From NCBI GenBank assembly GCA_963204725.1, contig CAUJHH010000055.1, forward strand, positions 1 to 64,000: 64,000 nucleotides of DNA. Direction: 5' to 3'. A program made the translations under genes and the position numbers. This document shows positions 460-21,923 of this stretch, piece after piece. The stretch comes from Planctomycetota bacterium. GTDB taxonomy: Bacteria; Planctomycetota; Phycisphaerae; Phycisphaerales; UBA1924. How positions within the stretch are numbered: the first letter of the stretch is position 1; every line of letters begins with the position of its first letter. The notes beneath the pieces are model-generated. The model searched no databases. It saw only the letters and a list, made by a program, of their open reading frames with translations, and was not told where the DNA came from.

Positions 460-698
460 CGAGGTCGTTCCCCCAAGGGCACCTGTTCATGCCCTCCATC
501 GGTTCTTTATCGCCAGCCGGAAGGACATGAAGTTACGGCATTTGCATGCTTCGGGCAACGAAATTCGAGCGTTCGCCGCCTTGCCCGGTCCGCCTGCTCG
601 CCCCTCCATCACCCGGTGCCGCTTTGGTCGCCGGAGCGTAGCCGCGGGATGCTCCCGCGAACGGCCTCCCCAGCGGTAACCCCAGCGGGAGCAAGGGC

Positions 699-2536: not shown

Positions 2537-2708
2537 CTATCACCTCCGACTCGGCTACGGTTTCGACCGATTGTAGAGTACGGTGGGTGCGCGACACAGG
2601 GTCGGGGATCGTTCCCGCCGTAGTCCCGATCCCCGGCGATTGACCTCCCCACCGCTCGCGCAGTGCCCGCAGCCGTGCGATAATCCCCCGACGCGAAAGG
2701 GGGATCCC

Positions 2709-3221: not shown

Positions 3222-3328
3222 GCCCGGACCTTGTGTCAAGGACGCGCGTACAAATCTCGACCGCGCTCTACCCACGGTCTTATGCACCGCGGGAGCCATC
3301 TCTGTTCGCAGACTGATCGGGTTCGCCG

Positions 3329-3334
3329 TATAAT
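3329..3334 (+). promoter_or_regulatory. Putative -10 box of the restriction cassette
   Basis: A perfect TATAAT lies 21 bases before the preferred methyltransferase start, in otherwise GC-rich sequence. The candidate -35 (TTCGCA at 3305-3310) is weak. This fits a promoter for the three co-directional genes that follow. Confidence 0.5.
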
Positions 3335-3355
3335 GGCTTGAGAGGTACTACCCGA

Positions 3356-4369: not shown

Positions 4370-4390
4370 TGCGGCCGGAGACAACTGATC

Positions 4391-6409: not shown

Positions 6410-8328
6410 CCTCGCTCACTTGCCTTCATCGTGTGCGGTTTGACTGGGTCAACGGGACATCTCTAGATATCGAGTGGGCCTCCGGCGACGAGGGCGAGGC
6501 CCTTCGTTTACCAGCACAATCCCAATCCATCACGGGTTGGATCGAACGCGTGCCGGATCAACTGAGCCTTGCGGGCATCCCGGCCCTCTCCGTCGATCAG
6601 GGGCAAACAACGAGCCTCTTCGAGCCGGTGCGACTTCGAGAGCAGACCGATTACACCTTGGACTTTCGCATTCGCGCAACTCTTCCAGCGGCCACGGCCG
6701 CGTGGCAGGACAATCCATCTTGGCCCTTGCCCGCTCGCTTCAACGGCGTCTATCGCACTCAGGCACCACGTCGATGGATGACCGACGGCGAGTACATACG
6801 TGTCGGTGGCGCCTTGAATTTCGGGTCATTTGTTGGTGTGGCGCACTTTGAGTTGCCAGATGGAGCGTCCGCACCGGTTGAGATCATCTGTACGAAGATC
6901 GGATATGTTGGCGACTTTAGGGCATTGTTGGAACAGGTGGGCCACGAGGTCGTTGAGCTGCTCTTGACGGTAGGAACACCCACCGGAATACCGCTTGCGA
7001 GTTCTGGCGACCTGAGCGCATCGCCTCTCGCGTTCTTGTTCCACCTGCGGTCTCTCCTTGCTTCGCACGAGCTTCCTGATGCGATCGAATCCATTCTTCG
7101 GCGACCGCACGAACGCCTAGGCGAAGACCGTCAGGAAGGGTTCGTGTGGGAGTTCCGGCATCCCGACGTGGCGGCGATGTCCCGCGCAACCGAGTATCTT
7201 CCAGACGTCAGTGCCACTGCGAGGAGTCCGGCCTTTCTCCCAGTGCCGATCAGGTACGACGGGCGCAGCCGCTCCGTGTCGAGGGATACTCAAGAGAATC
7301 GATATGTAAAGGCACTGTTGGAGGATATTGTAAGGCGAGCAGAAAGTGGTATTAGAGATCTGCGCGACGCAGGCAGCCTAGCAGCCATGCGCGAACTTGT
7401 TATTCACGCGGACCGCATTCGTGAGTGGTTGTCGCGTCCTTTGTGGAGAGAGGTTGGCCCATTCAGGCAGATGCCGTCAAACTCCCAAGTGCTGCAGCGT
7501 AGGTCTGATTATCGACGAGTGTTCGACGCTGACATGCGGCTTCATCTCGGACTGCGATTGCCTTGGAGTCCAAACACAAATGACGCGGATAGCACTTTCG
7601 GTGACATGCGACCCATTGATGTTCTCTATGAGTATTGGTGCTTCCTCGTAATCCGGCGCCTCGTGGCATCCATTTGCGGATCTGCGATCGAACCTCTGGA
7701 TAGCCTTCTGGTACGGTCGATGAATGGTTTTAGACTTCAGCTCGCGCGCGGCAAGGAAAGCAAGACGGTATTTCGCTGGGCGATCGCAGAGAAGGCTACG
7801 TGCCAGGTCGAACTTTACTTCAACCGGCACTTTGCGAGTGCTGCCGGTGCCGTGGAGGGCAGGTCGTACTCCGTCGGTCTCCGGCCCGACGTCAGCCTTT
7901 GCATTGAACGCATCCAGACGGGAGCAGTTGGCGCACGGCATTGGCTTCATTTTGACGCAAAGTACAGGCGTGAAATTGATGTGGCCGCCCTGGTAGGCGC
8001 GACAGATGACTCCTTAAGTGGTGGCGATCCGTGTGCAAGAATCGAGGAGACCTACAAGCGGGCAGACTTGTACAAGATGCATACATACCGCGACGCCATC
8101 ATTTCAACGCGCGGAGCGTACGCGCTGTTTCCATCGCTAACGGGTGGTGAGTCTATTTTTGTGCGAGGTCCATCCTTGGGTAGTGCGAAGTTACCGAGTG
8201 TAGGAATGTTCCCCCTGAGTCCTACGCGGGCAGTGGATCAGGAACTCCCATTGCGAAGGTTCCTTTTGAGGGTGTTGTCACAAATTACGGATGCATCGCA
8301 GGTAGTTGAGGAGCACATGGGTCCGTAG
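6406..8328 (+). CDS. McrC-like DUF2357 / PD-(D/E)xK restriction nuclease
   Basis: Cleavage subunit that partners the McrB-like motor. The 640-residue product starts at GTG 6406, inside the end of the previous gene. The region around residues 160-260 resembles DUF2357 (GYVGDFRALLEQVGHEV). The C-terminus carries a PD-(D/E)xK nuclease core: Asp495 in LRPDVSL, then Asp517-Ala-Lys519 in HFDAKYRRE, followed by the helical YKRADLYKMHTYRDAI segment that usually follows the core in this family. Together with the methyltransferase this forms a self-contained three-gene system. It ends with TAG. Confidence 0.85.
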   Translation: MTSLTCLHRVRFDWVNGTSLDIEWASGDEGEALRLPAQSQSITGWIERVPDQLSLAGIPALSVDQGQTTSLFEPVRLREQTDYTLDFRIRATLPAATAAWQDNPSWPLPARFNGVYRTQAPRRWMTDGEYIRVGGALNFGSFVGVAHFELPDGASAPVEIICTKIGYVGDFRALLEQVGHEVVELLLTVGTPTGIPLASSGDLSASPLAFLFHLRSLLASHELPDAIESILRRPHERLGEDRQEGFVWEFRHPDVAAMSRATEYLPDVSATARSPAFLPVPIRYDGRSRSVSRDTQENRYVKALLEDIVRRAESGIRDLRDAGSLAAMRELVIHADRIREWLSRPLWREVGPFRQMPSNSQVLQRRSDYRRVFDADMRLHLGLRLPWSPNTNDADSTFGDMRPIDVLYEYWCFLVIRRLVASICGSAIEPLDSLLVRSMNGFRLQLARGKESKTVFRWAIAEKATCQVELYFNRHFASAAGAVEGRSYSVGLRPDVSLCIERIQTGAVGARHWLHFDAKYRREIDVAALVGATDDSLSGGDPCARIEETYKRADLYKMHTYRDAIISTRGAYALFPSLTGGESIFVRGPSLGSAKLPSVGMFPLSPTRAVDQELPLRRFLLRVLSQITDASQVVEEHMGP

Positions 8329-8500
8329 GCCGTCGGATGACGGCTGCACGCCGACGGAGTGGCTAGCGATGTGGTTCGACATTGTTCGGAACATTAACGT
8401 CGAGCACTGCCCCCTGAATGCGCCGGTGCCAACCCGATCCGATCGACGAGGCAACTCCCGCAGGTACAAGCTTCGCTTTGTCGCCGGGAACGTAGCCGGA

Positions 8501-10150
8501 CTATGCGGGAGCCGGGCTGGGCGGCCCGGGGAGGTCGGCGACGATCCGGATTAGCGGCTCAAGCGAGTCCGACGCGACTCGCTCCGGATGGCCGGTATCG
8601 GGCGCACTGAAAGTGTGGATCCATCGGCAGCCGGGGACGAGGTAGTACTTCAGTGGCTGGTGGGTGCCCGCCTCTACTGTGTTGATGAGCACCCAGTCGG
8701 ACTTGCCTCCCGTGCGCACCTGGCAGCGCAGCCTGCCATCGATCGGCACGTACCGACCGACCATCGGTAGGAGCGTCAGCCGCCCGTTGACAACTAGAAG
8801 GCGCTGTCCGTGACGATCCACGGTGGCTCCGAGGCCACGGAGTTGCTCTGTCACGGTGGCACGAAGGATCTTGGCGAGCGCAATGCGGGCTCCAAACCCC
8901 TCCCAGTGCCCCTCATCGCCGGGGACGTAGTAGCCGACGAGGTCGTACGCCTTGCGGAGCGAGCCGAATCGTGCTCGGTACCAATCTGCTGTGGGTACAC
9001 CCGGTGCGCGATCGATCATGTGCGTCGAGAGCCTGCCCCGCTTTGCGTAGAGAGCCCGCAGCAACTCCAGCCCGGTCTGGTTAGACATCTCGCGGCTTGT
9101 TGAGGTCAGCACGTGCTGCACTCGTTCGTAGAGCGCATCGGTCACGATGCGGAGGTGTGGCCAATCGATCCGGAGCCATGACTCCCTCGGAGCGGGTACC
9201 TGAGGCGCGCTCAGCCGGGCTGTGCTCTGGCCGAAGTAGAACACGCCTGTGTACTGCACACTGGTCAGAATGTTCTTTACGCGCTGGTAGTTCCAGTTGG
9301 TGCCGCCCGTGCACGGGACGCGCCGGGTATTGAGCAGTCTGGCGATCTGGTTGTATCCAAGCCCTTTGGTAGCGACTTGGCGGTACATCCATCGAACTGT
9401 CTTTTGCTCGCTCTCCGGTCCCAGACAAAGCTTGATGTGCTCGGACTGAATCGACTTTCGCTGACCGGCCTCAAGAACCAGCTTCGGATTGCCGTCGGCA
9501 TCGACCAGAAGACGGCGGAACCCGTATCCGGTTCTGCCCCCCATCCAGAAGCCCATCTCGGCCATGCGACGCTTGGACGTTACGACCTTGTGGGAGAGTT
9601 CGCGGCTGTACTCACCGGCCATGATCCGCTTGAGCGCCTTGACGACAGCCGCCATGGGTGTCCCGTCGTTGCAGAACGCCTCGACGCAATACTCCACGCG
9701 GATGCCCGCTCTGCGACACACGAACTCGTAGTAAGCCGACTCGTCCGTGTCTTGAAACCGTCCCCACCTACTCACGTCGTAGACTAGGATCGCCTCGTAT
9801 CCCGCGTGCCCATTGGCAATGTCGTCAAGCAGGGCAATGAGGCCGGATCGCCCTTGGATTGATAGGCCGCTGCGGCCATCATCTTCGTATGTCGCGACGA
9901 TCGCGTACCCGTGCTGTTGGGCATACGTCTCAATGGCTTCACGTTGCCGAGCAGGCGAGTAAGTCTGCTGCTCGGTGGACATGCGAATGTACTGAGCGGC
10001 CCTTCGACTCGATCCATCGAGAGGCGTGACGCGGGCCGTTGTCGGCACGGAGTGTCCGTGCTGGACCCCGAGCGCGTGGGACAACGTGGCGGGAGGGGGG
10101 CTGCTCGCCGTGCAACGATCGAGCGACATCTGCTTGACGCGTGACGACAT
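8501..10150 (-). CDS. Large serine recombinase
   Basis: Site-specific serine recombinase of the resolvase/invertase superfamily, 549 residues. The start at 10150 is supported by GGGAGGTGGCGA immediately upstream. The first 50 residues are a variable lead. The catalytic domain follows, with nucleophile Ser58 in AAQYIRMSTEQQ and the arginine motif YDVSRWGRF near residue 125. The recombinase domain (GYGFRRLLVD to LNTRRVPCTGG, about 190-290) binds DNA. No zinc-ribbon cysteines follow. The C-terminal third has a LSTHMIDRAPGVPTADWYR repeat-like domain that may help choose target sites. This is the second integrase-type enzyme in the island, pointing to nested or successive insertions. No att site was identified for it. 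Confidence 0.88.
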   Translation of the reverse strand: MSSRVKQMSLDRCTASSPPPATLSHALGVQHGHSVPTTARVTPLDGSSRRAAQYIRMSTEQQTYSPARQREAIETYAQQHGYAIVATYEDDGRSGLSIQGRSGLIALLDDIANGHAGYEAILVYDVSRWGRFQDTDESAYYEFVCRRAGIRVEYCVEAFCNDGTPMAAVVKALKRIMAGEYSRELSHKVVTSKRRMAEMGFWMGGRTGYGFRRLLVDADGNPKLVLEAGQRKSIQSEHIKLCLGPESEQKTVRWMYRQVATKGLGYNQIARLLNTRRVPCTGGTNWNYQRVKNILTSVQYTGVFYFGQSTARLSAPQVPAPRESWLRIDWPHLRIVTDALYERVQHVLTSTSREMSNQTGLELLRALYAKRGRLSTHMIDRAPGVPTADWYRARFGSLRKAYDLVGYYVPGDEGHWEGFGARIALAKILRATVTEQLRGLGATVDRHGQRLLVVNGRLTLLPMVGRYVPIDGRLRCQVRTGGKSDWVLINTVEAGTHQPLKYYLVPGCRWIHTFSAPDTGHPERVASDSLEPLIRIVADLPGPPSPAPA

Positions 10151-10367
10151 TCGCCACCTCCCGACAGCGGGAGCATGGAGCCGTCTCGGCCTAACGAGAC
10201 TTTGGATCGCGTTGAACTTGAGCGGGACACACACGCTGCCGGTGGCGCGATCACTTCCATCCCGCTCGCTGCAGTAAGCATGCCACGCGACCGAATGGGC
10301 AGCCACCTGATTCCACGGAATCGCGTGGAAAACCCAACAATAAGCGATCGCCGCTCGGTCGCTGACA

Positions 10368-11189
10368 TCAGCCAGCGCCGCGGCCGAGTTGTCGGTTCGC
10401 CTCTTCGAGCCGGGCCTCCCACGCCCTTACCGCCTGCTCCATCGACACGACCCGAGCCGATGCGTCCTTGGTGCTCGCGTCGAGCGATGCATGAATGATG
10501 AGCGTGAGCTGTTCGACCTGCAGGCCGGCGAGATGCGTCATCTGCTGGAACGACCGCTCCCGCTCGAACACGTCGTCGGCGCGCTTGGCGTCGTTGACTC
10601 TGGCCCGCAGCACATCGGCGATCGCGACGAGGCACTCCCATGCGTTTCCCACGAACCCGAATGGATCGGTGGCGTCGCGAGCCATCCCAAGGGCCAGCGA
10701 TCGGAACCGCTTAATGGCCACGCTGTCGTAGTGCCGATCGCTCGCCTCAACAAGTGCGACGACGCCGACACAGGTGACCTCAGTCACGGCCAGAATGAAC
10801 TGCGTCGTATTCCTTGTCAACGTGGCGGTCGTGAACGCTCCCCTCGCGACCGCGAGCGACAGCATGGCTCCGTCTCTATGGAGACCGGCCGTGACCGGAT
10901 CGTTGGAGGATTGAGCCGCCTGCGACTGATCTCGGAACTGGGCGAGCAGCTGCTCCTGCCCTTGCAGTAACTCCTTGATCGTGCCCGTCTGCCGATCGAC
11001 GAGAGCCCCCAAGGTGCGCTCCAGACCGTCGGGAGCCACGAGCGCGAAGATCAGCGCTTGGTCGGCCGCGAGTGAGTCGGAGTACAGCCTCTGGGCATCA
11101 ATCCCGGTGACGCTCGGATACAGCGCGACGAGTTGGCCAAACCTCTTGTGAACAGCGTCTACCGCTTGGCTGGTGGGCAACTTCGTCAT
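10368..11189 (-). CDS. Hypothetical helical protein
   Basis: A 273-residue product with no recognised family. It is predicted mostly helical, with long amphipathic stretches at about 75-105 and a C-terminal coiled-coil-like segment (SMEQAVRAWEARLEEANRQL). A moderately hydrophobic stretch at about 128-148 is not convincing as a membrane anchor. GAGGA lies about 12 bases before ATG 11189. It sits 217 bases upstream of the serine recombinase on the same strand; the gap between them holds nothing I can name. Function unknown. Confidence 0.6.
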   Translation of the reverse strand: MTKLPTSQAVDAVHKRFGQLVALYPSVTGIDAQRLYSDSLAADQALIFALVAPDGLERTLGALVDRQTGTIKELLQGQEQLLAQFRDQSQAAQSSNDPVTAGLHRDGAMLSLAVARGAFTTATLTRNTTQFILAVTEVTCVGVVALVEASDRHYDSVAIKRFRSLALGMARDATDPFGFVGNAWECLVAIADVLRARVNDAKRADDVFERERSFQQMTHLAGLQVEQLTLIIHASLDASTKDASARVVSMEQAVRAWEARLEEANRQLGRGAG

Positions 11190-11328
11190 GGCGTTGGTCC
11201 TCGTCAGCGATGGGCGATCGAGCGGGCAGGATACTCGACGCGCGGAGCGGTATGGTGAGCGGCACCGTCACGACGCTCCTGATGGATAGTCGTTCGGCGT
11301 GCGATCGGTCCGGCGGCATCCGGCTCTA

Positions 11329-11691
11329 TCAGGCATCGCGCTTAGGCGGTTCCCAGTTCACAACCTGCGCGATGTCGATGTAGAAGTCGATGGCGGTGTT
11401 GATGATCACGCGCAGCACCAAGTAGGCGAGCAGGAGTACCAGAATCCAAGCGGCCACCTTCCATCTCTTCTGACCGTCTCCCGAGGGAGAAGGCGCGTCC
11501 TTGGATTCGAGGCGATGGGCCCGCTGGCGCAGCTGAACGCCAGTCGCCGGAACGGGCTCCCGCTTCTCGCCCGCAGACTTCAGAAGGAACGCGGAGCGCG
11601 CACCCATCGCGCCCGCACGATTGCGGTTAGAGTTCCCTTTGCGCTTCACTTTTTCTGCTCCGATCGGGCCGCCGTTGGCCGAATACTCCAA
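11329..11691 (-). CDS. Small single-pass membrane protein, hypothetical
   Basis: Up to 120 residues. The C-terminal half has one strong membrane helix (WILVLLLAYLVLRVIINTA) followed by a short tail ending NWEPPKRDA. The N-terminal half is basic and Ser/Arg-rich and may be non-coding; ATG 11607 is an alternative start giving 92 residues. The first codons include a 19-base sequence repeated at 11939-11957, so the 5' end may have been shaped by a rearrangement. Confidence 0.4.
   Translation of the reverse strand: MEYSANGGPIGAEKVKRKGNSNRNRAGAMGARSAFLLKSAGEKREPVPATGVQLRQRAHRLESKDAPSPSGDGQKRWKVAAWILVLLLAYLVLRVIINTAIDFYIDIAQVVNWEPPKRDA
11659..11677. repeat. 19-bp direct repeat, copy 1
   Basis: The 19 bases starting TCCGATCGGG occur again exactly at 11939-11957, 280 bases away. 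Both copies read Asn-Gly-Gly-Pro-Ile-Gly on the minus strand, inside two different reading frames that otherwise share nothing. They flank a stretch of gene remnants and may mark an old insertion or deletion. Confidence 0.55.
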
Positions 11692-11767
11692 GCCGCTTCG
11701 TCGCGGCTAACCATGAATCTGGCGGCTGTCAGGGGTCGAATCCCTTTCAACCGCCGCCCGGCGCAGG

Positions 11768-12256
11768 CTACGAGTGCCTGAACCGCACGACCCCGCTGAA
11801 TTGCTCGGCTGAAACGGCCGAGAACGCTCCTACGGTTTCCACAGAATCGATACTGCCGAGAGGCGATGTCCTTTGTACTATCTCGGCAGAGCGATGGGCT
11901 AGGCTTTCAGCACCTCCTGCTGGTCCTTTACAAGTTTGTCCGATCGGGCCGCCGTTGAGTCGAATGCGACGGTGGCCCTTTTTATTGGCTCGATGCGCTT
12001 GAGTCTCATCGGATAGTGCCGGGAAGTTATTGGAAGCGTTCTCGTAGGCGCACGTCCCGACGGCGACCTGCGTGCTGAGCGTCGCGGAGACAGAGTGACG
12101 GGCGAGCTCTCGTGCCTTGCCCAGCGCGGGCAGCAGAATGCCGATCAGCAGCGCGATGATCGGAATGACCACCAGCAGCTCGATCAGCGTGAATGCGCGG
12201 CCCGTGCCGCGTGCACACGCATTGGATATGCGGAACTCAGGCATGAGAGTCCCCAA
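11768..12256 (-). pseudogene. Truncated prepilin (type II secretion-like pseudopilin) remnant
   Basis: From ATG 12256 the first 60 residues are a textbook prepilin leader and helix: [19 protein letters not shown] then [11 protein letters not shown], with the conserved Glu five residues after the cleavage site. A short stretch continues plausibly ([19 protein letters not shown]). From about residue 90 the product becomes arbitrary and includes the 19-bp repeat. Planctomycete pseudopilins are normally 200-300 residues with an H-x9-DG signature, which is absent here. I read this as the 5' end of such a gene fused to unrelated DNA. Confidence 0.65.
11939..11957. repeat. 19-bp direct repeat, copy 2
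   Basis: Exact second copy of the repeat at 11659-11677. In the prepilin remnant it lies just where the sequence stops looking like a pseudopilin, so it may be the breakpoint. Confidence 0.55.
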
Positions 12257-12413
12257 TGGCCCCTAGTCGCCTCGACTCCAAAGTCGAGGAACATCAGGTA
12301 TGGCATGAATCAATTAGTCAACAAGAAGAATGCGAAGGGCTTTATCGATCGGGCGAGCGATCAGCGGCTAACGACGCTGCCAGACATTCGCTCTTTCAAC
12401 CCCGTTCCATGCA

Positions 12414-12611
12414 TCAAATCAGCCCACAAATCGTGTGCATGGAGCGAAAAGTGCCGACGGACGCAGGCCGTCGCATCAGAATTCCAATGAGCAGCATGAT
12501 GATGGCAATTACCACCAGCAGTTCGATCAGCGTAAATGCTTGGGTGCGTGAGGATGGCCAGTCCTTTCTGATTGAGATCCTGAAACTAGCCTCGTCTATG
12601 CGAATCTGTCG
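12414..12611 (-). pseudogene. Second prepilin leader remnant
   Basis: On the minus strand an open stretch with no usable start codon reads [20 protein letters not shown] from about 12545 and stops at TGA 12414, some 20 codons after the leader helix. Upstream in frame are stop codons at 12612 and beyond. It is a decayed 5' fragment of a pseudopilin gene, parallel to the remnant 160 bases downstream. Confidence 0.6.
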
Positions 12612-12787
12612 TCATTACCATCCGCTCAACTTCTGCGTTCAGCATACCAGAAAAGCGAAACTCGGCAAAATAAATCCCTTGGGTTGGCGTGGTAGTCTCC
12701 GAACGAAATGCCAACTGCGATCTCCTCCTTCAAATTGTGCGGGGTCTTCACCTCAATATCGTCCCTCGTGCGGTTGATACGAGGGGC

Positions 12788-12895
12788 GAGCGGCAGACTC
12801 TGAGACAGATCGGCGAAGAAATCGGTACGCCATTGGGAACCGTCAAGTCGGCGCTCAGCCGCGCGTTGGTACGGCAGAGAGCACATGGGCGCGAC
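12788..12895 (+). pseudogene. Sigma-70 region 4 fragment
   Basis: About 36 codons match the DNA-binding end of ECF/sigma-70 factors: TLRQIGEEIGTPLGTVKSAL then SRALVRQRA, the classical helix-turn-helix that reads the -35 box. The rest of a sigma factor (region 2) is missing and no ribosome site is seen. It is most likely a remnant next to the two prepilin fragments. Confidence 0.5.
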
Positions 12896-13051
12896 ACCGC
12901 TCGCGATGTACGCACAGTCTTTGTCGGCACGGACGCGTCGCGATTCGTCCACTCTTGGCGGGCACCCCGGGCTTCCCCCGGCGCTCCGCGCGGTCCGGCT
13001 TGACGAGGAATACCGCTCGCGTCATGCTGCCTTGATCTAGGGAGGTGTCGC

Positions 13052-14041
13052 ATGCTGAAGCGTCTGTTGGTGTCGATTGTGTGTCTCGGGTCTCTGCTTT
13101 GGGCTTCAACCGCGCAGGCGTGGGGGAAGCACGGGCACTACGTCGTGGCGTGGATCGCGTACCAACGCCTTGAGCCAGCGGCCAAGGCCGAGATCGACCG
13201 GCTGTTGGCGACGGAGCGCACCACGCTTTGGGACGCGGCGTACTGGCCCGACGAGGTTGCCCGGGGGTTGCCCCAGTACAAGCACATCGCGCCGTACCAC
13301 TACGTCAACTTCGTGGAAGGTCAGGGCGAGTACGACGCGACTCGCGCGAACTCCAATGGGGATGTGGTTCAGGGAATCGAGCGGTATGCCGCGATTGTGG
13401 GGGACAAGAGCAAACCCGACTCGGACCGACTTGAGGCCCTGCGGTTCCTGAGCCACTTCGTCGGCGACATCCACCAGCCGCTCCACGCCGGGCGCGGCGC
13501 GGACCGGGGTGGGAACGACCTGAAGGTGACGTTCTACAACCGCCGCACCAACATGCACGCGGTCTGGGACTCAGGGATCATGGATCGTTCCCATACTGAC
13601 TGGAACGGCTTCGCGGCCGACCTCAACGGTCTCATCCGTCCGCAGGACGTCGAGTCGTACATCGAGGACATGAACCCCGCGGGCTGGGCGAACGAGTCGT
13701 ACCGGCTGGCTGAGGACGAGATCTACGACGAGTTCGAGCCGGACGAGCCGCTGGCGAAGGCGTTCGTGGACGAGAAACTGCCCGTTGTTGAAGACCAGTT
13801 GTCGATCGCGGGGGTGCGGCTGGCGACCATGCTGAACCGGATGTTCCCGGGCAACACGCCCGTCTCGGACCTGCCGGTCCAGCCAGTGGAGGAGCCAGTC
13901 ACCGTGTACGTGACGCCCAGCGGCTCGAAGTACCACGCGGCCGGGTGCCGGTACCTCAAGGGCCGCCACTCGCCGGTGGCGCTTGACGAAGTCGGAGCTG
14001 GCAAGGGCCCGTGCTCGGTCTGCAATCCGCCGCAGCGCTGA
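13052..14041 (+). CDS. S1/P1-type nuclease with C-terminal Ada-like zinc tail
   Basis: Exported zinc-dependent nuclease (or 3'-nucleotidase/phospholipase-C-like enzyme) of the S1/P1 family, 329 residues. A signal peptide ends in AQA, so cleavage would expose Trp24 as residue 1. This matters because the family binds zinc through the mature N-terminal Trp1 and His6, here Trp24 and His29 in WGKHGHYVVAW. Further ligands are visible in YWPDEV, PYHYVNF and HFVGDIHQPLHAG..DRGGND. After about residue 275 a separate 45-residue tail reads KYHAAGCRYL...GPCSVCNPP, the His/Cys3 pattern of the Ada-type metal-binding fold. GGGAGGTG precedes ATG 13052. The fusion is unusual; the tail may anchor substrate or the cell wall. 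Confidence 0.88.
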   Translation: MLKRLLVSIVCLGSLLWASTAQAWGKHGHYVVAWIAYQRLEPAAKAEIDRLLATERTTLWDAAYWPDEVARGLPQYKHIAPYHYVNFVEGQGEYDATRANSNGDVVQGIERYAAIVGDKSKPDSDRLEALRFLSHFVGDIHQPLHAGRGADRGGNDLKVTFYNRRTNMHAVWDSGIMDRSHTDWNGFAADLNGLIRPQDVESYIEDMNPAGWANESYRLAEDEIYDEFEPDEPLAKAFVDEKLPVVEDQLSIAGVRLATMLNRMFPGNTPVSDLPVQPVEEPVTVYVTPSGSKYHAAGCRYLKGRHSPVALDEVGAGKGPCSVCNPPQR

Positions 14042-14059
14042 CGGCGAGGCCGGTCTCCA

Positions 14060-14086
14060 TTGCACGCGGGTGCATTGCTCTACACT
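14060..14086 (+). promoter_or_regulatory. Candidate promoter, leaderless start
   Basis: TTGCAC (14060-14065) and TACACT (14081-14086) resemble -35 and -10 boxes with 15-base spacing. The ATG at 14094 begins 7 bases after the -10, so transcription would start at or beside the start codon. Confidence 0.45.
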
Positions 14087-14093
14087 CGGATGC

Positions 14094-15860
14094 ATGAGCG
14101 AGTCTGGTTCTCAGGCTGAGGATGTCGCACGTCTGGTAGCGCTACGGGCTCGGGTGCGAGATCTGGTGGGCAGTCGCCGATGGCTCGCGGACGCCTTCCG
14201 CGACGCGTTTGAGCGATACCAGCTGTTATGCCATCTATGGCGACAGGGCCAGTCGGAACTTCACAACCGAGAACTGGAACTCGCGCGAGAGATCCTGAAG
14301 ACGGGCCGGCTCCGTGATCCTTCCATGAAGCGTGGCAGGCACAAGGTGGTCATCGAGGGGTTGTGCCCTGTTCCGTTGGCCCGGCAACTCGAGAAAGCCA
14401 GCCTCGACTCGCTCCCCAAGGCGGTTGAGCTACGGGCGGCGAAGGCTGCTCTAGCGGCGCTCGAGCGAGACATCGTCCGCCAGTCCAAAGACCTGCCAGC
14501 GCAGGAACGTGAGACGATGGCGGCTGAATCGCTTGCGGCCATCAATAAGCAAACGCACGTCAACTTCGAGTGGAGAGTCTTCGTGCGCCGTCCGGACGAC
14601 TGGGTTGAGCCGCCCTGTCCCCACAGCATGGAGCAGAAGAACCTCGGCCTCTTCTCGAAGGAGGACTTCCGCTCCATCGCGATGTATCACCTCGGTGGCT
14701 TGGCCGATGTCGGCGCTGTGCACCCCATTGTCCCGGAGCCGAAGGGTGAGGGGCTCGCGGCCGCTGCGGCACTCACGTCTTGGCGATCCCGACTTCCGAT
14801 CGACGACCCAGAGCTCGGCTCGCCAGACCCTGAGCTGTCACCCACGAAGCTCCCACCCGGTCTTGCCGAGCAGATGTTCTCGGCGGTATCGGTATGGGTG
14901 GCAGAGATAGAGAACTTGGAAAGGCTGTCACCTGCGGCGCGTCTGTGCCTTGCGCTCATCGGGCTGAAGGGGGTGCTCGGCGATGGGGCTCCATTCACGG
15001 AGTTGTCGGTGCGTCGATCCGAACAATCTCGTCTGCAGCGGGCGGCGTTCGATGCAGCCGGACGCGGGCTGTGCGTGTCTCTGATGGACACGAAGTCCAT
15101 GGCGGAGTTGGCTACGAGGTTCCTTGACGGGTCGATGCCTCGGGAACCCTCCGACTACCTCCAGCGTCTGTCGGACGTGCTGGTTGAAGCGGACAGGCAC
15201 TGCCAAGACGCGATCGTCGCCATTTCCTTGGGTGGAGTGCGGAAGATCGATCGCGGCGTCAACCCCGGTGCTGCTGAGGCATCTCTCGCGTGGGATGTGC
15301 GGATACAGAGAACTCAAGAGCAGCTGGCGCGTGTGAGATGGTGGCTACGGGAGCCCCGACTGGTGGTGGAGGAGGATCTGCGGGGCATTCGGGAGACCGG
15401 TGACTGGCTGGAACAGGCGATCGCGGAACTGAACGCCGCAGAGCGGTTGTCGCAAACGCTGGGCGAGCAATCTGATGATGACAAGCAGCTTGCCGGAGTA
15501 GGCGAGAGCGACCAGTCAGTTCTGCTCGCCGCGAAGAAGACCCAGCCCGACAAATCGAAACAGTTGTCGCGGACGATGAGGGCGGCGGGCGAGTCTTTGG
15601 AATGGGCGATCGTCACGAACCCCGCGTTCGAGCACCTTGCCAACGAGGGCGGTGACGCACTTCTCCCGATTCATGCTTGGCTCAAGGATCAGGAGTGCCC
15701 TTGCTATCCGCTGTCCAAGGACGGCAAGGAGACGCTGCCCTCCGCACAGACATGGTTGCGTTACATACGCGGATACCGGCGAATGACCTGGAAGTCTGCC
15801 AAGCCGCCAAAGGCGCGCGCACCAGACGGAAAGTCTGTCGTGCGGGTGGAAGAGATCTAG
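14094..15860 (+). CDS. Large hypothetical protein
   Basis: A 588-residue product of no recognised family. It is soluble and largely helical, with charged amphipathic helices at about 10-75 and 430-520 and an Asp/Pro-rich loop near 235-260. The C-terminal 60 residues (LPSAQTWLRYIRGYRRM) look like a small basic DNA-binding or winged-helix end, which is only an impression. Start chosen at ATG 14094; longer in-frame extensions overlap the nuclease gene. No Shine-Dalgarno is seen, but a TACACT box lies 7 bases upstream. It precedes the mobile-element module and may belong to it. Confidence 0.7.
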   Translation: MSESGSQAEDVARLVALRARVRDLVGSRRWLADAFRDAFERYQLLCHLWRQGQSELHNRELELAREILKTGRLRDPSMKRGRHKVVIEGLCPVPLARQLEKASLDSLPKAVELRAAKAALAALERDIVRQSKDLPAQERETMAAESLAAINKQTHVNFEWRVFVRRPDDWVEPPCPHSMEQKNLGLFSKEDFRSIAMYHLGGLADVGAVHPIVPEPKGEGLAAAAALTSWRSRLPIDDPELGSPDPELSPTKLPPGLAEQMFSAVSVWVAEIENLERLSPAARLCLALIGLKGVLGDGAPFTELSVRRSEQSRLQRAAFDAAGRGLCVSLMDTKSMAELATRFLDGSMPREPSDYLQRLSDVLVEADRHCQDAIVAISLGGVRKIDRGVNPGAAEASLAWDVRIQRTQEQLARVRWWLREPRLVVEEDLRGIRETGDWLEQAIAELNAAERLSQTLGEQSDDDKQLAGVGESDQSVLLAAKKTQPDKSKQLSRTMRAAGESLEWAIVTNPAFEHLANEGGDALLPIHAWLKDQECPCYPLSKDGKETLPSAQTWLRYIRGYRRMTWKSAKPPKARAPDGKSVVRVEEI

Positions 15861-15863
15861 GCC

Positions 15864-15938
15864 GCGGATTTCGCGCGGATTTTTGTCCGCATCCACGCTG
15901 CTAGAACGCCATCCGCGCACACATCCGCCGATCCGCGC
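15864..15938. repeat. ATCCGC/GCGGAT operator-like repeats
   Basis: The octamer ATCCGCGC occurs at 15911 and 15931, its complement GCGCGGAT at 15873, and partial copies GCGGATT at 15864 and ATCCGCC at 15923. They lie immediately before the first HTH gene, the expected place for an autoregulatory operator or excisionase-binding cluster. Confidence 0.5.
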
Positions 15939-15948
15939 CGTGTCCTAC

Positions 15949-16164
15949 ATGGCGACCAACAAAAAGCGTGAGCCCGTTCGGCTACTCGGATCATCCGAAC
16001 TCGCCCGTCGGCTCGGAATTAAGCCCGATACCGTGCGTCGTTGGGCCCGATCAGGACTCATCCCGTGCTATCGAGTCGGTATGAAGTCCTTGCGGTTCGA
16101 CTTCGCGGAGATCTGTGACGCACTGCGTTCGGTGTCACCTGAGGAGGTGCGCCGTGCCGAGTGA
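15949..16164 (+). CDS. Helix-turn-helix (MerR/excisionase-like) protein
   Basis: A 71-residue DNA-binding protein. The pattern SSELARRLGIKPDTVRRWAR followed by SGLIPCYRVGMKSLRFDFAE is the winged helix-turn-helix seen in excisionases and MerR-like regulators of mobile elements. ATG 15949 is chosen; upstream in-frame codons fall inside the operator-like repeats. The next gene starts inside its 3' end. It probably binds the repeats just upstream or acts as a directionality factor for the serine integrase at the end of the module. Confidence 0.75.
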   Translation: MATNKKREPVRLLGSSELARRLGIKPDTVRRWARSGLIPCYRVGMKSLRFDFAEICDALRSVSPEEVRRAE

Positions 16165-16378
16165 TCACCCCAAACCGAACCACTCCGAGCCGCGCGTCAC
16201 CCTCGCCCTTCGCGCCCGCGAGGCCGCGAAGGCCATCGGCATCAGCGAGCGTCTCTTGGCGACATTGGTGGCCGAGAAGCGGATCCCTCATCTCTACATC
16301 AACAGTGCACTCGTCATTCCGGTTCGCGAGTTGCAAGACTGGCTTACCTCTGAGGCTGCCAAGGAGGCGAGGCAATGA
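16154..16378 (+). CDS. Second small HTH (AlpA/excisionase-like) protein
   Basis: A 74-residue product starting at GTG 16154, with GAGGAGGTG directly upstream and an 11-base overlap with the preceding gene. The core REAAKAIGISERLLATLVA...IPHLYINSALVIPVRELQDW is an excisionase-type winged helix-turn-helix. Two consecutive HTH genes followed by primase and ATPase genes are typical of integrative elements and phage satellites. It ends in an ATGA overlap with the primase gene. Confidence 0.75.
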   Translation: MPSDHPKPNHSEPRVTLALRAREAAKAIGISERLLATLVAEKRIPHLYINSALVIPVRELQDWLTSEAAKEARQ

Positions 16379-17217
16379 CGCTCCTCGACGACTTCATCCG
16401 CGTGAGCCGGAACCGCCCGTGTCCGATCTGCGATCGCGCAGATTGGTGCCTCATCCGCCGTGGAGACACGCCCGCGAGCGCCATCTGTGCGCGAGTCGAA
16501 TCTCCCACCCGTTGGGGCGAAGCAGGGTGGCTCCATCGCCTCACCAATGAGACGCCCCGGGTGCAGCGCATCCGTCGCATTATCTCCATCCGCAAGCCGA
16601 GCGAGGAGATGGCGCGGATCGCACAGGCGTATCAAGAGGCGGTCGTGCCTGGCGTCATGGAACGGTTCGCGCGTTCGCTCGGCGTCAGTGCCGTGAGCAT
16701 GCAGCGTCTTGGTATCGGCTGGACGGGTCGCAGTTGGGCATTCCCGATGCGGGGCCGTGACGGAGGCATCTGCGGCATCCGGATTCGGGCTTCCTCGGGC
16801 AAGAAGTTCTCCCAGCGTGGCGGGAAGGAAGGGCTGTTCGTTCCCAATGTCCTCACCGGCACCGGCGCGCTCTTGATCGCTGAGGGTCCGACCGACTGCT
16901 GTGCCCTGCTGGACCTCGGCTTCGACGCCGTGGGCCGCCCGAGTTGTCGCGGCGGCGTGCGGCTCATCGCGGACTTCGTCCGTCGCAGTCCGTGGAAGAG
17001 CCACGTGATCTTCGCCGACGCCGACGGTCCCGGCCTCGATGGCGCGTTGACGCTCGCCCGTGCCCTTGCACCTCTCTCGCCCGACGTGCGCGTCGTCGTC
17101 CCCCCGGCAAAAGACGCGCGGGCGTGGAGGAACGCTGGCGCAACGCGAGAGAACGTCCTCGCGCTGATCGATGCTGCCCCTCCGATCCGCACGTCCTTCC
17201 GGAGGGTCACGCTATGA
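16375..17217 (+). CDS. TOPRIM primase-like protein of a mobile element
   Basis: A 280-residue protein likely to make primers for replication of the element. The N-terminus has a zinc-binding knuckle (PCPICDRADWC, residues 15-25). The C-terminal half is a TOPRIM fold: LLIAEGPTDCCALL holds the catalytic Glu, and VIFADADGPGLDGALTLAR holds the DxD metal site. A central stretch (MQRLGIGWTGRSWAFPMRG) matches the DnaG-like region preceding TOPRIM. Its start and stop overlap neighbours by 4 and 4 bases (ATGA), so the module is translated as a unit. The similarity is to plasmid/phage CHC2-TOPRIM proteins rather than host DnaG. Confidence 0.82.
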   Translation: MTLLDDFIRVSRNRPCPICDRADWCLIRRGDTPASAICARVESPTRWGEAGWLHRLTNETPRVQRIRRIISIRKPSEEMARIAQAYQEAVVPGVMERFARSLGVSAVSMQRLGIGWTGRSWAFPMRGRDGGICGIRIRASSGKKFSQRGGKEGLFVPNVLTGTGALLIAEGPTDCCALLDLGFDAVGRPSCRGGVRLIADFVRRSPWKSHVIFADADGPGLDGALTLARALAPLSPDVRVVVPPAKDARAWRNAGATRENVLALIDAAPPIRTSFRRVTL

Positions 17218-19079
17218 GCGAGTCCTCCAACGCCGAACTTGTCATGCGGTTTCTTCCCGTCGGGGCCAAGGGCAAGTTCCATGTGGTGACGACCATTCCC
17301 GGTGGCGGGGCGGTCGTGAACGAGTTCCGTCTCGCGGACGCCGCGGCGCGAGAGCGATACGCCGACATGGTCTGCATGGGGCGGCCCGGTCTCAATCGCG
17401 CCGACATCCTCCAGCAACTGGACAACGAGGCGGCGGCGCAGGCGCTCAAATTGCCGGGGGCCGCAGCGAAGCCGACCCAAGCGGCCCAACTGGTTGAGAT
17501 GGTCATGGACACGGACGGCGTGGAACTCTTCCACACACCCTTCGGCGAGGCGTTCGTGACCATTCCCGTGGGCGATCACTTTGAGCACTACAAGGTCACG
17601 TCTTCCTACTTCGAGGCGTGGCTGCGGAACAAGTTCTACGCGGAGCACGAGAAGCCGTGCGGAAGCCAAGGGGTACGTGACGCCATCGCCACGCTGGTCG
17701 GGAAGGCGATCCACGAGGGCAAGAAGCACAGCGTGGAGGTCCGGGTCGCGCAGCACGAGGGTGATGTGTGGATCGACATCGGGGACGAGGAGCGCCGAGC
17801 CGCACGCGTTGACGGGAGGGGGTGGACCGTCGTTCCAGCGACACAGGTGCCGGTGAAGTTCGCGCGCACGGGGAACATGGCCGCCCTTCCGATCCCCGAG
17901 CACGGCGGCTCGGTGGACCTGCTGCGCCCGCTGGTCAACATGCCCGACAACGACTCGTTCGTGCTGTTCATCGGGTTCCTCGTCGGCTCGCTCAATCCCA
18001 TTGGTCCCTACGGCATCCTCTCGGTGAGCGGCGAGCACGGCTGTGCCAAGAGCACCGTCTGCAAGTTTGCGGTCGGGCTGACCGATCCCCGGAAGCCCGA
18101 CCTGCGCCGACCACCCCGCAACGAGCGGGAATTGTTCATCTCCGCGTGCCGGGCGCGAGTTGTCGCGCTCAACAACGTCAGCGGCCTCAAAGCCGACATC
18201 TCGGACGCCCTCTGTGTGCTCGCGGTCGATGGAGGCTTCTCGACCCGCAAACTCTACACGGACGAGGACGAAGCCCTGTTCGATGGGCTGCGCGCCATCG
18301 TTATCAACGGGATCGAGGAGCCCGCGAGCCAGCCCGACTTGGTGGACCGATGTATCGCGATCACCCTTCGGGCCATCTCCAAGCGTGAGCGCCGCCAGCT
18401 GCGCGACATCAATCAGGAGTTCGAGCGGGTTCGCCCGCTCGTGTTCGGTGCCCTGCTCGACGCCGTTTCTTCCGCGATCCGGAACCTGCCGAACGTGAAC
18501 CTCGTCGAAGCGCCGCGCATGGCCGACCTCGCCGCGTGGGTGACGGCGGCCGAGGAGGGACTGGGCTGGGCCAAGGGCACGTTCATGGCGGCGTATGCGG
18601 GCAACCGTCTGGCCTCGCAGACGGACGCGGTCCTGGCCTCGCCCGTCGGTGCCGCGATCTTCACCATCGCGGAGCAGGGTGGATTCCGGGGGACCGCGGC
18701 CGAACTGCTGGATGCGATGAACCGTGCACGCGGAGAAGGACCGGTGCCGCAGGATTGGCCCAAGTCTCCCCGTGGGGTCGCCGGAGCGGTTCGGCGGCTC
18801 GCGCCGGGCCTTCGGGAGATTGGCATCGATGTGGTCCCGCCGGAAGGGCCCACCGGCCATGCCAACCGCCGGTTGTTCACCGTCACCAATCTCGCTGGCC
18901 AATGTGTCGCATGTATCGCACCACCGCCGTTGGCCGACTCCGAGGCCCCCTTGGGGCCCTCGCCAGAGGAGTGGGAGACGCTCCAGGAGGCGTCTGCGAT
19001 ACATGCGATACATGCGACACATCAGAATCGCAACAACTCCGATGCGTGCGTCGCTGGGTCGCGGGAGGTGGCACCATGA
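17214..19079 (+). CDS. Replication ATPase/helicase-like protein of the element
   Basis: A 621-residue protein directly after the primase, overlapping it by 4 bases. The central part is a P-loop ATPase: ILSVSGEHGCAKSTVCKFA is the Walker A (GxxGxxKST) near residue 275, and VVALNNVSGLKADISDAL is the Walker-B-side strand. Phage and plasmid primase-helicases have this layout, so unwinding or origin melting is the likely job. The N-terminal 250 residues may be a DNA-recognition domain. The last 60 codons are low-complexity and coincide with a cluster of inverted and tandem repeats (18902-19022), which explains the odd tail AIHAIHAT. It ends overlapping the next gene by 4 bases. Confidence 0.75.
   Translation: MSESSNAELVMRFLPVGAKGKFHVVTTIPGGGAVVNEFRLADAAARERYADMVCMGRPGLNRADILQQLDNEAAAQALKLPGAAAKPTQAAQLVEMVMDTDGVELFHTPFGEAFVTIPVGDHFEHYKVTSSYFEAWLRNKFYAEHEKPCGSQGVRDAIATLVGKAIHEGKKHSVEVRVAQHEGDVWIDIGDEERRAARVDGRGWTVVPATQVPVKFARTGNMAALPIPEHGGSVDLLRPLVNMPDNDSFVLFIGFLVGSLNPIGPYGILSVSGEHGCAKSTVCKFAVGLTDPRKPDLRRPPRNERELFISACRARVVALNNVSGLKADISDALCVLAVDGGFSTRKLYTDEDEALFDGLRAIVINGIEEPASQPDLVDRCIAITLRAISKRERRQLRDINQEFERVRPLVFGALLDAVSSAIRNLPNVNLVEAPRMADLAAWVTAAEEGLGWAKGTFMAAYAGNRLASQTDAVLASPVGAAIFTIAEQGGFRGTAAELLDAMNRARGEGPVPQDWPKSPRGVAGAVRRLAPGLREIGIDVVPPEGPTGHANRRLFTVTNLAGQCVACIAPPPLADSEAPLGPSPEEWETLQEASAIHAIHATHQNRNNSDACVAGSREVAP
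18902..19022. repeat. 19-bp perfect inverted repeat with 9-bp iterons
   Basis: Bases 18902-18920 are the exact reverse complement of 19004-19022. Around the right copy, three tandem 9-mers run TGCGATACA, TGCGATACA, TGCGACACA at 18995-19021. Between the arms lies another small hairpin (AGACGC...GCGTCT near 18976-18996). The cluster sits in the 3' end of the replication ATPase gene, a common place for a plasmid or element origin, or for a binding site of its own initiator. Confidence 0.65.
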
Positions 19080-19303
19080 GCGGCACCCACCCGCCGGGCG
19101 TCCCTGATGCCGACCTCTTCGCCCGGACTTTGGTGGCCGAGGCGACGCGGGTCGAGACCGCGGAACTGGTCATCAAGAACGAGGTGCTGGCTGCGGCCCG
19201 CAAGGGCGACTGCGACCGGGTCATGGACATTGTGTCGCGATGGCTCACCGAGCCGCCCGTGGCCTTGGCGGCGACCTTGATTGATGCGAGCGAGTCGAGG
19301 TAA
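19076..19303 (+). CDS. Small hypothetical protein between ATPase and integrase
   Basis: A 75-residue acidic helical product. GGGAGGTG precedes ATG 19076, which overlaps the ATPase stop (ATGA). No family recognised. Its position as the last gene before the serine integrase, and its tight coupling to the replication genes, make it part of the element. A regulatory or accessory replication role is only a guess. Confidence 0.65.
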   Translation: MSGTHPPGVPDADLFARTLVAEATRVETAELVIKNEVLAAARKGDCDRVMDIVSRWLTEPPVALAATLIDASESR

Positions 19304-19353
19304 GGGTGTGGGTAGGTCGCGCAGAAGCCGCGACCCATGAAGGAGTGCCCCAC

Positions 19354-21081
19354 ATGCGCGTCATCGCGCTCTTCCGAGTGAGTACCGAGAAGCAGGCCAG
19401 CGAGGGCGCGTCCCTCGACGCCCAAGAGCGGGCGTACCGCGTGATGGCCGATCGCAACGGCTGGACGACGGTGCAGGAGTTCCGGGGGAGCGAATCGGCT
19501 TCCGGTGCGTCCAGCGACCGGCGCGTGCTGCAGCAGGTGCTTGCCTGCATCCGTGAAACCGAGCCGGACGCGATCTGGGTCTACGAGCAGTCACGACTGA
19601 CGCGTGGAGACGAACTCGAAGTGGCCGGGCTGCTTCGCGAGTTGCGCGAGCGGGAGATCAAGATCCTCGTCAACGGCGTGGTGCGCGATCTCGGGTCCAT
19701 CGACGAGAGGTTCATGGTCGGCATTCAAAGCCTCGTCGATCGCGCCGAGTCGGAGCGGATCAAGGAACGCATGCACCGGGGGAAGCGGGAGAGAGCGAAG
19801 CAGGGCAAGAAGAACTCGGGTCCGGCGGCGTTCGGCTACCTCAATCCGTTCAAGGGCATGCCGGGGCATGGGACTTTACAGGTGGTCGAGGAACAGGCCC
19901 GAGCGGTCCGGTTCATCTTCGAGAAGCGGCTGGAAGGCCACGGCGAGAAGGCGATCGCCAAGATGCTCAACGAGCGCGGCGTGAAGCCCCCTCGCAGCGG
20001 GCAGTGGGGGGGAACGACCATCCGGCGCATCCTCCAGAACCCGCTCTACATCGGGACGCAGGCGTCGAACGTCTGGGTGGCCGAGCGCGGGACGCGCTCC
20101 TTCCGGCTCGACCTCAACAACAAGAGTGCCATCCTCATCCCCGACGCCCACCCGGCGATCATCGACCGGGCGACGTGGGACGCCATCCACGGATTGCCCA
20201 AGCAGCCCCGAGCGGCCGTGCCGAGGATGCTGACGGGCCTGCTCCACATCAACGGGCACATGGCAGGGGGCGATAGCGACTGCCGAAAGCGGTTCTACTC
20301 CACCGCGAACCACGGTCGGGGTCTGCCCTGGCTCGAGGTGAAGCAGGTCGAGGACGCCGTCTGGGACGCCTTTGCGTCGCTGACCACAGGACCGGAGTTC
20401 GTCGAGAGGCTGATGCGGCAGGCCAGCAACGCCCACGAGCAGGAGATCGTCGCCCGCGAGATCGAGCACCTCGAGGAACAGATCCGGAAGACGGAGAAGC
20501 GGCTGGACAACCTCCTCGACATGCGCGCCAACCAGGAGATCGACCGGGAGACCTACGCGACCAAGTCCCAGAAGGAGCGGCAGGCCCGGGACCGGCACCG
20601 TGCCGATCTGGTGGAGCAAAGATCCAAGGCCGTGGTGGTGGACGCCACGCTGGCCCAGCGGGTGGTCAGGAGCGTCCAGACGGTGCTGGCCGGGCGGACG
20701 CGCTTGACGGGCGAGCAGAAGCGGGCGATCCTGAGGTCGGTCGTGAAGCGGATCGACATCGACGCCGCGAAGTCCGGAGCCAAGTTCACCCGTGACAGCG
20801 ACGGCAGGATCAACGGCAGTGGGGGGCCCGCGTGGCGGATCGAGCGAGTGACTATCCGGGTGGCGGTCGGCGTCGAAGGAACGCCCCACGGCGAATCCTC
20901 GGGCACCACGCACGCCAACTGGGCCGAGACCGTGCCTGCCGGGGCGTCGCGCCGCACCGGACAGTTGCGCACAACCTATTCGAATTGTGCGCAAGTGGCA
21001 GGCACGGACGAGGAAACCCGTACCGGACAGTTGCGCACAACCTTCTCATGCTCGGGCCGGCGGGGACCGGCAAGACCATGA
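19354..21081 (+). CDS. Large serine integrase at the element border
   Basis: A 575-residue serine recombinase that probably inserted this element. ATG 19354 has AAGGAG 9 bases upstream. The nucleophile is Ser10 in IALFRVSTEKQ, with the arginine motif EQSRLTRGD near residue 88. The recombinase domain (AFGYLNPFKG to LNERGVKPPRSG) and a long coiled coil at about 360-440 (IEHLEEQIRKTEKRLDNLLD) are present. The zinc-ribbon segment is degenerate, with a single Cys near 310. The last residues are encoded across the attachment sites: the sequence RTGQLRTT appears twice, and the final 13 residues come from host comM DNA read in another frame. The native C-terminus in the circular form must therefore differ. 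Confidence 0.92.
   Translation: MRVIALFRVSTEKQASEGASLDAQERAYRVMADRNGWTTVQEFRGSESASGASSDRRVLQQVLACIRETEPDAIWVYEQSRLTRGDELEVAGLLRELREREIKILVNGVVRDLGSIDERFMVGIQSLVDRAESERIKERMHRGKRERAKQGKKNSGPAAFGYLNPFKGMPGHGTLQVVEEQARAVRFIFEKRLEGHGEKAIAKMLNERGVKPPRSGQWGGTTIRRILQNPLYIGTQASNVWVAERGTRSFRLDLNNKSAILIPDAHPAIIDRATWDAIHGLPKQPRAAVPRMLTGLLHINGHMAGGDSDCRKRFYSTANHGRGLPWLEVKQVEDAVWDAFASLTTGPEFVERLMRQASNAHEQEIVAREIEHLEEQIRKTEKRLDNLLDMRANQEIDRETYATKSQKERQARDRHRADLVEQRSKAVVVDATLAQRVVRSVQTVLAGRTRLTGEQKRAILRSVVKRIDIDAAKSGAKFTRDSDGRINGSGGPAWRIERVTIRVAVGVEGTPHGESSGTTHANWAETVPAGASRRTGQLRTTYSNCAQVAGTDEETRTGQLRTTFSCSGRRGPARP
20952..21007. other. attP-like symmetric attachment site
   Basis: TTGCGCACAA at 20965-20974 and TTGTGCGCAA at 20985-20994 are perfect inverted arms with a 10-base centre. 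Symmetry extends outward so that 18 of 23 arm positions pair over 56 bases. This size and shape match attP sites of large serine integrases. The left arm plus the first three centre bases recurs 66 bases downstream at the comM junction. Confidence 0.6.
21018..21043. other. attR-like junction between element and comM
   Basis: These 26 bases repeat 20952-20977 with one mismatch, then continue into comM coding sequence (CACAACCTTCTCATGCTC reads HNLLML, the start of the Walker A strand). It therefore looks like the left half of attP joined to the right half of a comM attB, as expected for one end of an integrated element. Confidence 0.65.
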
Positions 21082-21923
21082 TGGCCAAGGCGCTGCCGGG
21101 TGTGTTGCCGGGATTGACGCCGGAGGAGGCGCTCGACATCACGCGGATCTACTCGGCGGCGGGGAAGCTGCACGAGGCGGCGGGGCCGGAGGGGCTGGTA
21201 TCGATTCGACCGGTGCGGTGCCCGCACCATACCGCGTCGTCGCCGGCGATCGTGGGCGGGGGTGTGATCCCGAGACCGGGTGAGATCTCGCTCGCGCATC
21301 GCGGCGTTCTCTTTCTGGATGAGCTTGCGGAGTTTCCGAGGCCGGTGCTGGAGACGTTGAGGCAGCCGCTCGAGGACCATGTGGTGACGATCGCGCGAGC
21401 GCACGGAGCGATGAAGTTCCCGGCCAGCTTCATGCTGGTGGCGGCGATGAATCCGACGCCGAAGGGAGACATGCCGGTGGGGGATGTGGGGCGCTGGGAG
21501 ATGGAGCGGTATTTGGCGCGGGTTTCCGGGCCTCTGATGGATCGGATTGACATCCACGTCGAGGCTCCGGCGGTGAAGTGGGAGCAGTTGTCGGGTGGTG
21601 TGCGGGGCGGGCCACCGGGGACGGGGACGGCGGAGATGCGGGATCAGGCGGAGCGGGCGCGGGCGAGGCAGATCGCGCGGCAGGGCGCGATGACGCCGAA
21701 TTCGAGGTTGAGCGGGAAGATGCTCGATCAGATCGCGCCGCTGGTGCCGGAGGCGTTGACGCTGCTGGGCACCGCGATGACCGAGCTCGGGCTGTCGGCA
21801 CGGGCGTACGACAAGATCCGGCGGGTGTCGCGGACGATCGCGGATCTTGCCGAGTCGGATGTGGTGTTGCCGGAGCACGTGTCGGAGGCGGTGAGTTACA
21901 GGTTGCTCGATCGGAAGGTGTGA
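21036..21923 (+). pseudogene. comM: comM/YifB Mg-chelatase-like ATPase, 3' part cut by insertion
   Basis: ComM is an AAA+ helicase that aids branch migration during natural transformation in several bacteria. Only its C-terminal 295 residues are here: Walker A GPAGTGKTMMAKALPG at the very start, Walker B VLFLDELAEFPRPVLETLRQ, sensor AAMNPTPKGD, and the C-terminal helical domain LSARAYDKIRRVSRTIADLA. The usual N-terminal 200 residues (Lon-like domain) are replaced by element DNA. The frame stays open into the element for about 68 codons, but that lead does not match the family. The comM gene is a known integration hotspot (for example AbaR islands in Acinetobacter). Translation from a new start could leave an ATPase fragment, but loss of function is likely. 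Confidence 0.88.

Follow-up and report, generated by a model that had tools for sequence, protein, structure and literature searches.

The comM gene is an insertion hotspot for AbaR-type islands in Acinetobacter, which move by a Tn7-like transposition machinery and not by a serine integrase. Insertion into comM by large serine recombinases (LSRs) is likewise known and frequent. Among predicted site-specific LSRs, 12.4% target the gene for Mg-chelatase/ComM (Durrant et al. 2022, PMC10083194), and those elements split comM with a large serine recombinase, as does the element described here; unlike the planctomycete family, however, no paired attP sites are mentioned for them in the parts of that paper available to us. 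In the sr1WO group of Wolbachia phage WO, a serine recombinase integrates into a magnesium chelatase gene, and parts of the target gene lie on both sides of the prophage, as in the present case. Phage WO differs in its Wolbachia host and in having phage structural genes, and the available portion of the account describes one attP per phage (PMC9203015). These reports bear on the view of an earlier note on this DNA that a serine-integrase element at this position of comM in a planctomycete, with the att site inside the ATP-binding loop, seems little described.

Two further systems resemble the arrangement at the attachment site itself. Recombination by phiC31 integrase requires a matching 2-bp overlap, and several orthogonal att pairs told apart solely by that overlap, including TT, CT and GT, have been engineered (SIRA, PMC3936721); those pairs are synthetic, whereas the planctomycete arrangement appears to be natural and tandem. 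In the integration-dependent immunity of mycobacteriophage BPs, attP also lies in a coding frame and integration alters the C-terminus of the protein, but the gene is that of the repressor, whereas the planctomycete attP lies in the 3' end of a serine integrase gene (PMC4557955). A literature search for natural tandem or dual attP sites, made without most subscription journals, returned only engineered sites or unrelated uses of the words. As far as could be found, attP pairs whose crossover dinucleotides are orthogonal have been described as engineered constructs but not from nature.

The window analyzed here is a stretch of 64,000 nucleotides, bases 1-64000 of the 70,685-bp contig C55 in a planctomycete genome (G000) assembled as 75 contigs. 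The principal features are collected in Table 1.

Table 1. Features at and around the comM junction, in positions of the 64,000-nucleotide window.
Feature	Position	Strand	Evidence or remark
Right arm of integrated element	1..21046	.	Extends past contig start; left arm on C8 (reverse complement of L005 up to comM 5' half)
Cargo: DNA methylase, AAA protein, DUF2357/PDDEXK_7 nuclease, defence-like	3338..8328	+	PF01555 1.6e-42, PDC-M26A 5e-32, PF09823, PF04411
Cargo: S1/P1 nuclease, also in G102 element	13052..14041	+	PF02265 2e-64
Two overlapping small HTH_17 genes, excisionase-like	15949..16378	+	HTH_17 2.4e-10; phrog_66 excisionase 5e-9; second ORF HTH_17 3e-5
Primase/helicase-like protein	16375..17217	+	phrog_239 1.4e-10
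P-loop protein (GEHGCAKS), probably replication ATPase	17214..19079	+	No family match; motif read by eye
Large serine recombinase (integrase) gene	19354..21081	+	PF00239 and PF07508; fold similar to the integrases of SPbeta, phiC31 and Bxb1
Spare attP1-like site; crossover dinucleotide TT at 20979-20980	20949..21010	+	Leave-one-out matrix rank 1, 40.0 bits; dyad symmetry 12/18; repeat
attR (left half attP2, right half comM); crossover dinucleotide CT at 21045-21046	21015..21076	+	Agreement with attL on C8
comM 3' half, Walker A onwards	21047..21923	+	PF01078 positions 22-206, E 1.2e-68

Immediately 3' of the integrase ORF, which might instead start at a GTG at 19306, the comM frame resumes at its HNLLML strand, and PF01078 is matched in the window from position 22 onwards only. 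Base composition shifts at 21.0 kb, where GC skew steps from ~0.03-0.08 to ~0.26. The comM 5' half was located on a second contig of the same genome (C8:9540-9668, minus strand), inside an ORF of 300 aa, where it stops at ...GSHNLL and gives way to element sequence. The resulting attL is GGGTCGCACAACCTTCTCAggctgtgcgcaag and attR is cagttgCGCACAACCTTCTCATGCTCGGG, with a 15-bp core common to both, CGCACAACCTTCTCA. In the congener G067, comM is uninterrupted. With a core shared by attL and attR and an empty attB in relatives, the locus qualifies as a comM-integrated serine-integrase element. The earlier note was thus correct in proposing a serine-integrase insertion, in finding comM to begin at HNLLML with its N-terminal half absent from the window, and in looking to relatives for an intact comM. 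Its expectation for the left side held in part: the comM 5' half and the other element arm are both present on C8, but the arm is CAGGCTGTGCGCAAGTGG and not the anticipated ATTCGAATTGTGCGCAAG. Both ATTCGAATTGTGCGCAAG and the palindrome taken there for an attP arm belong instead to a second, unused attP-like site (20949-21010).

Because the comM halves of this genome lie on different contigs, one might suppose that no insertion had occurred, and that an unrelated integrase happens to adjoin a comM that is short by nature or chimaeric through misassembly. We regard this as extremely improbable and already refuted, since three other genomes have a single contig with the element between the two comM halves (G002, element ~33 kb; G102, ~36 kb, in a single-contig genome; G170, ~54 kb), and the shared att core and the intact comM of congeners also speak against it. 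The insertion is real, and its demonstration is as good as can be had from a draft assembly.

The integrase was searched for in all 163 available genomes of the family, in order and phylum samples, and in one scan of GTDB species genomes. Related integrases, 44-81% identical, were found in 11 other genomes (G124, G006, G010, G080, G102, G002, G100, G101, G103, G104 and G170), and in all 11 the right end of the element lies at the same comM codon. The order-level sample contributed one member from outside the family, G170, and the phylum-wide sample none besides the genome of the window. In G006 and G103 a search for the comM 5' half gave nothing, and in G006 the left end of the element was not found either. 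A second comM-like match in G080 (C73) was rejected as an ABC transporter. In IMG/VR, the attP-like pattern had no match and the sole integrase relative, 44% identical, does not adjoin comM; among the best matches in phage and plasmid collections the integrases were ~24-27% identical. Nine of the elements form one clade in the integrase tree (support 99/98). When attL and attR were compared across elements, the invariant agreement was at the first and second base of one comM codon, that lying four residues ahead of Walker A; in G010 nothing else in that stretch agrees. The crossover is in the beta-strand codon just ahead of the P-loop (window 21045-21046), and not inside the ATP-binding loop as had been supposed.

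Genes that recur among the elements, besides that of the integrase, encode a ParB-N/N6-N4 methylase fusion, a primase or P-loop ATPase, and a small-terminase-like HTH protein. Their cargo varies: the window's genome has a ShosTA-like pair together with DUF2357/PDDEXK_7 and AAA, G102 has type I restriction-modification, and G002 has type III restriction-modification with SIR2. The ShosT/ShosA-like pair lies near attL on the C8 left arm (L005:6452-7787; PADLOC E 9e-21 and 4e-70). Just inside attL, L005 ~9350-9480 resembles by eye the C-terminal end of an IS1595-type transposase. Besides its integrase, the element contains one further large serine recombinase as well as a tyrosine recombinase (window 8501-10306, minus strand, and 699-1601, plus strand), and another serine recombinase is found near the left end of the G002 element. 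A 625-aa protein at window 13983-15860 had no match in Pfam, PHROGs or PADLOC. The ORFs scanned in G102 and G002, both complete relatives, included no capsid, portal, large terminase or tail gene, and no relaxase or type IV secretion gene was found among the element ORFs scanned; of the genes looked for in phage satellites (PICI/P4-like), excisionase-like and primase genes and weak small-terminase matches were observed. The lack of capsid, large terminase and conjugation genes among the ORFs scanned leads us to lean towards a defence-carrying, possibly satellite-like integrative element.

The integrase itself has the N-terminal resolvase and Recombinase domains (PF00239 7e-21, PF07508 1.6e-22). 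Its structural model matched in Foldseek the SPbeta, phiC31 and Bxb1 integrases (9dxh 1.6e-24, 9rah 9e-16, 9iu2 8e-14) and has long helices at residues 360-392 and 398-429, in keeping with an LSR-type fold with a coiled coil. Global TM-scores were low (0.2-0.3), owing to the uncertain domain arrangement of the model (pTM 0.36). The cysteine ligands of the zinc ribbon, usual but not universal in such enzymes, were missing, with 0-1 Cys in the region in 10/10 members checked and no zinc-ribbon Pfam match. Despite the lost cysteines, ribbon-like strands are predicted at residues 285-335 of the integrase (window 19354-20952). We read the predicted zinc ribbon as degenerate, which lowers the likeness to canonical LSRs; the hallmarks in the catalytic domain, the recombinase domain and the overall fold are present.

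The unusual part of the locus is the spare second attP-like site just upstream of the junction, which the earlier note had missed as such. The palindrome at 20964-20997 repeats the left half of attR (26 bp, 96%, spacing 66) and has a right arm of its own. One used and one spare site are present in 9/9 elements of the integrase clade, at a spacing of 57, 66 or 78 bp that is always a multiple of 3 and in frame with the integrase gene. With a weight matrix built from the used sites, leave-one-out, the spare was the top-scoring site in 8/9 elements, at 26-44 bits against at most 9.2 bits elsewhere in the sequence scanned; the exception is G006, whose degenerate spare ranks third at 2.9 bits. Dyad symmetry of the spares is 8-14/18 against a background of 4.9, and the Thr codon ACA, which makes up 3.4% in these integrase genes, occurs in 8/9 of them. 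The symmetry and the rare codon indicate constraint at the level of DNA. The existence of used and spare sites is thus well supported by comparison of the nine sequences.

The integrase frame passes through both sites. In reconstructed circular forms the tail continues past attP2 with residues like QVAVTV and in most meets a stop soon after; integration swaps this tail for out-of-frame comM sequence. The modelled end of the integrase, residues 506-533, is predicted to be disordered.

The spare lies at the right end, beside the integrase, in six elements (G000, G124, G006, G010, G080 and G102), and at the left end, beside attL, in three (G002, G100 and G101). This is the distribution expected if a circular form with the order attP1-spacer-attP2 had used attP2 in the six and attP1 in the three, and intact attP1-attP2 pairs were observed on single contigs in G080. 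In G104 and G170, which are more distant members, both ends show a single site, and no spare was found at the right end of G103, so the pair is probably derived, to judge from this distribution.

The dinucleotides of the used and spare sites differ in 9/9 elements. The used/spare combination is CT/TT in G000, G124, G006 and G010, TT/CT in G080, G100 and G101, GT/AT in G102, and CT/GT in G002. From pooled frequencies the chance of a difference is ~0.64 per element, which gives ~0.02 for 9/9 by our estimate, with elements treated as independent. The order attP1=TT, attP2=CT is common to six elements, of which four entered CT hosts through attP2 and two entered TT hosts through attP1. The third base, contributed by the host, is G or A after TT (TTG, TTA) and C or G after CT (CTC, CTG), in line with true leucine codons. 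Among 125 comM genes of the family that lack an element, searched with a pattern that fixed the T, the dinucleotide was CT in 67, GT in 36, TT in 11 and AT in 11, and both CT and TT occur within the genera g1 (that of the window), g3 and g7. The G103 and G104 elements, in which no spare is visible, come from genus g60, where the dinucleotide is GT in 16/16. The spares GT of G002 and AT of G102 match no sampled congener; AT, being self-complementary, gives no orientation. Being at a third codon position of the integrase gene, the first base of the dinucleotide may drift.

Serine integrases join only att sites with matching central dinucleotides, so a pair of sites would let the element fit the codon of its host, and the 2-bp overlap rule (PMC3936721) makes such a proposal mechanistically plain. 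The sequences show an element of ~30 kb or longer that its own LSR inserted through attP2 x attB recombination with dinucleotide CT. Its circular form has attP1 (TT) and attP2 (CT) at the integrase 3' end as direct repeats 66 bp apart; integration consumes one site, and the other stays as a spare beside attR or attL. The element would use whichever dinucleotide fits the host comM codon (CTN, TTR, GTN or ATH), so that a synonymous change in that codon would not protect the host. We give a probability of about 0.55 to the overall reading that this is a comM-inserted LSR element whose attP pair fits different host codons, and consider it an even bet that the pair is a natural two-key array, in which one integrase would act on two tandem attP sites differing in dinucleotide to integrate in either host allele. 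From comparative sequence we infer that the spares may recombine and that the array would serve to widen the target range.

Site choice made host by host, independently of phylogeny, is weakened as an interpretation because the attP1 users fall in one weakly supported clade (89/94), which allows for a single ancestral switch of the active site. The same clustering favors an alternative in which each lineage has one active attP and the second site merely binds integrase as an accessory or decoy, acting for instance in synapsis, excision or integrase expression and kept unreactive by its mismatched dinucleotide. Such a mismatch would indeed prevent the spare from recombining, and the spare retains the features of a binding site in its matrix score and dyad symmetry. 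The active role must then have swapped sides between clades, yet the order TT then CT is constant in six elements of both; moreover, distant relatives manage with one site, and the spares carry only NT dinucleotides that occur in hosts. We consider this alternative rather unlikely.

Larger arrays occur as well. In G080, a single attL and a single attR are accompanied by four more right ends whose site pairs are intact, on contigs C35, C47, C76, C67, C10 and C74. attP1 (CT) is present at all five right ends, and in two of these most of the integrase gene is lost and the site pair kept. The arrangement resembles an array of several copies of the element. In G044, whose genome gave no match to the comM pattern, the first 260 bases of C60 (L168, reverse strand) hold three tandem attP-like sites 78 bp apart, TT, TT and CT and thus with both keys, followed by two further right half-sites at the contig edge. 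Single orphan attP-like sites (CT) were seen away from comM in G060 (C12:258291-258324) and G063 (C16:257197-257230); comM is intact elsewhere in both genomes and no integrase was seen near either site.

That extra copies do arise in G080 and G044 fits the idea that the spare is a functionless by-product of tandem duplication at the integrase 3' end, or of tandem insertion followed by deletion, as does the recombination of attP with attP by A118 integrase, at less than 5% of the normal rate (PMC3556126). A by-product is nevertheless hard to reconcile with a pair kept in nine elements even though the mutual identity of their integrases falls to ~46%, with an in-frame spacing of 57-78 bp in every case and constraint at the DNA level, and we think this origin improbable. 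The low-rate attP x attP reaction has a further consequence for a pair that fits different host codons, as differing dinucleotides would also guard it against loss. Dinucleotides that always differ would arise too if the sole need were to prevent attP1 x attP2 deletion; advantages in host range and in protection of the pair are not mutually exclusive.

Prediction of an att site from a single junction can settle on the wrong copy, and the earlier note on this locus is an example. If the preferred reading is true, paired sites of this kind would be ready-made multi-key integration sites for tools. Host escape from integration through synonymous changes in attB would become directly testable, and the family would show how a site-specific element keeps pace with variation in its target.
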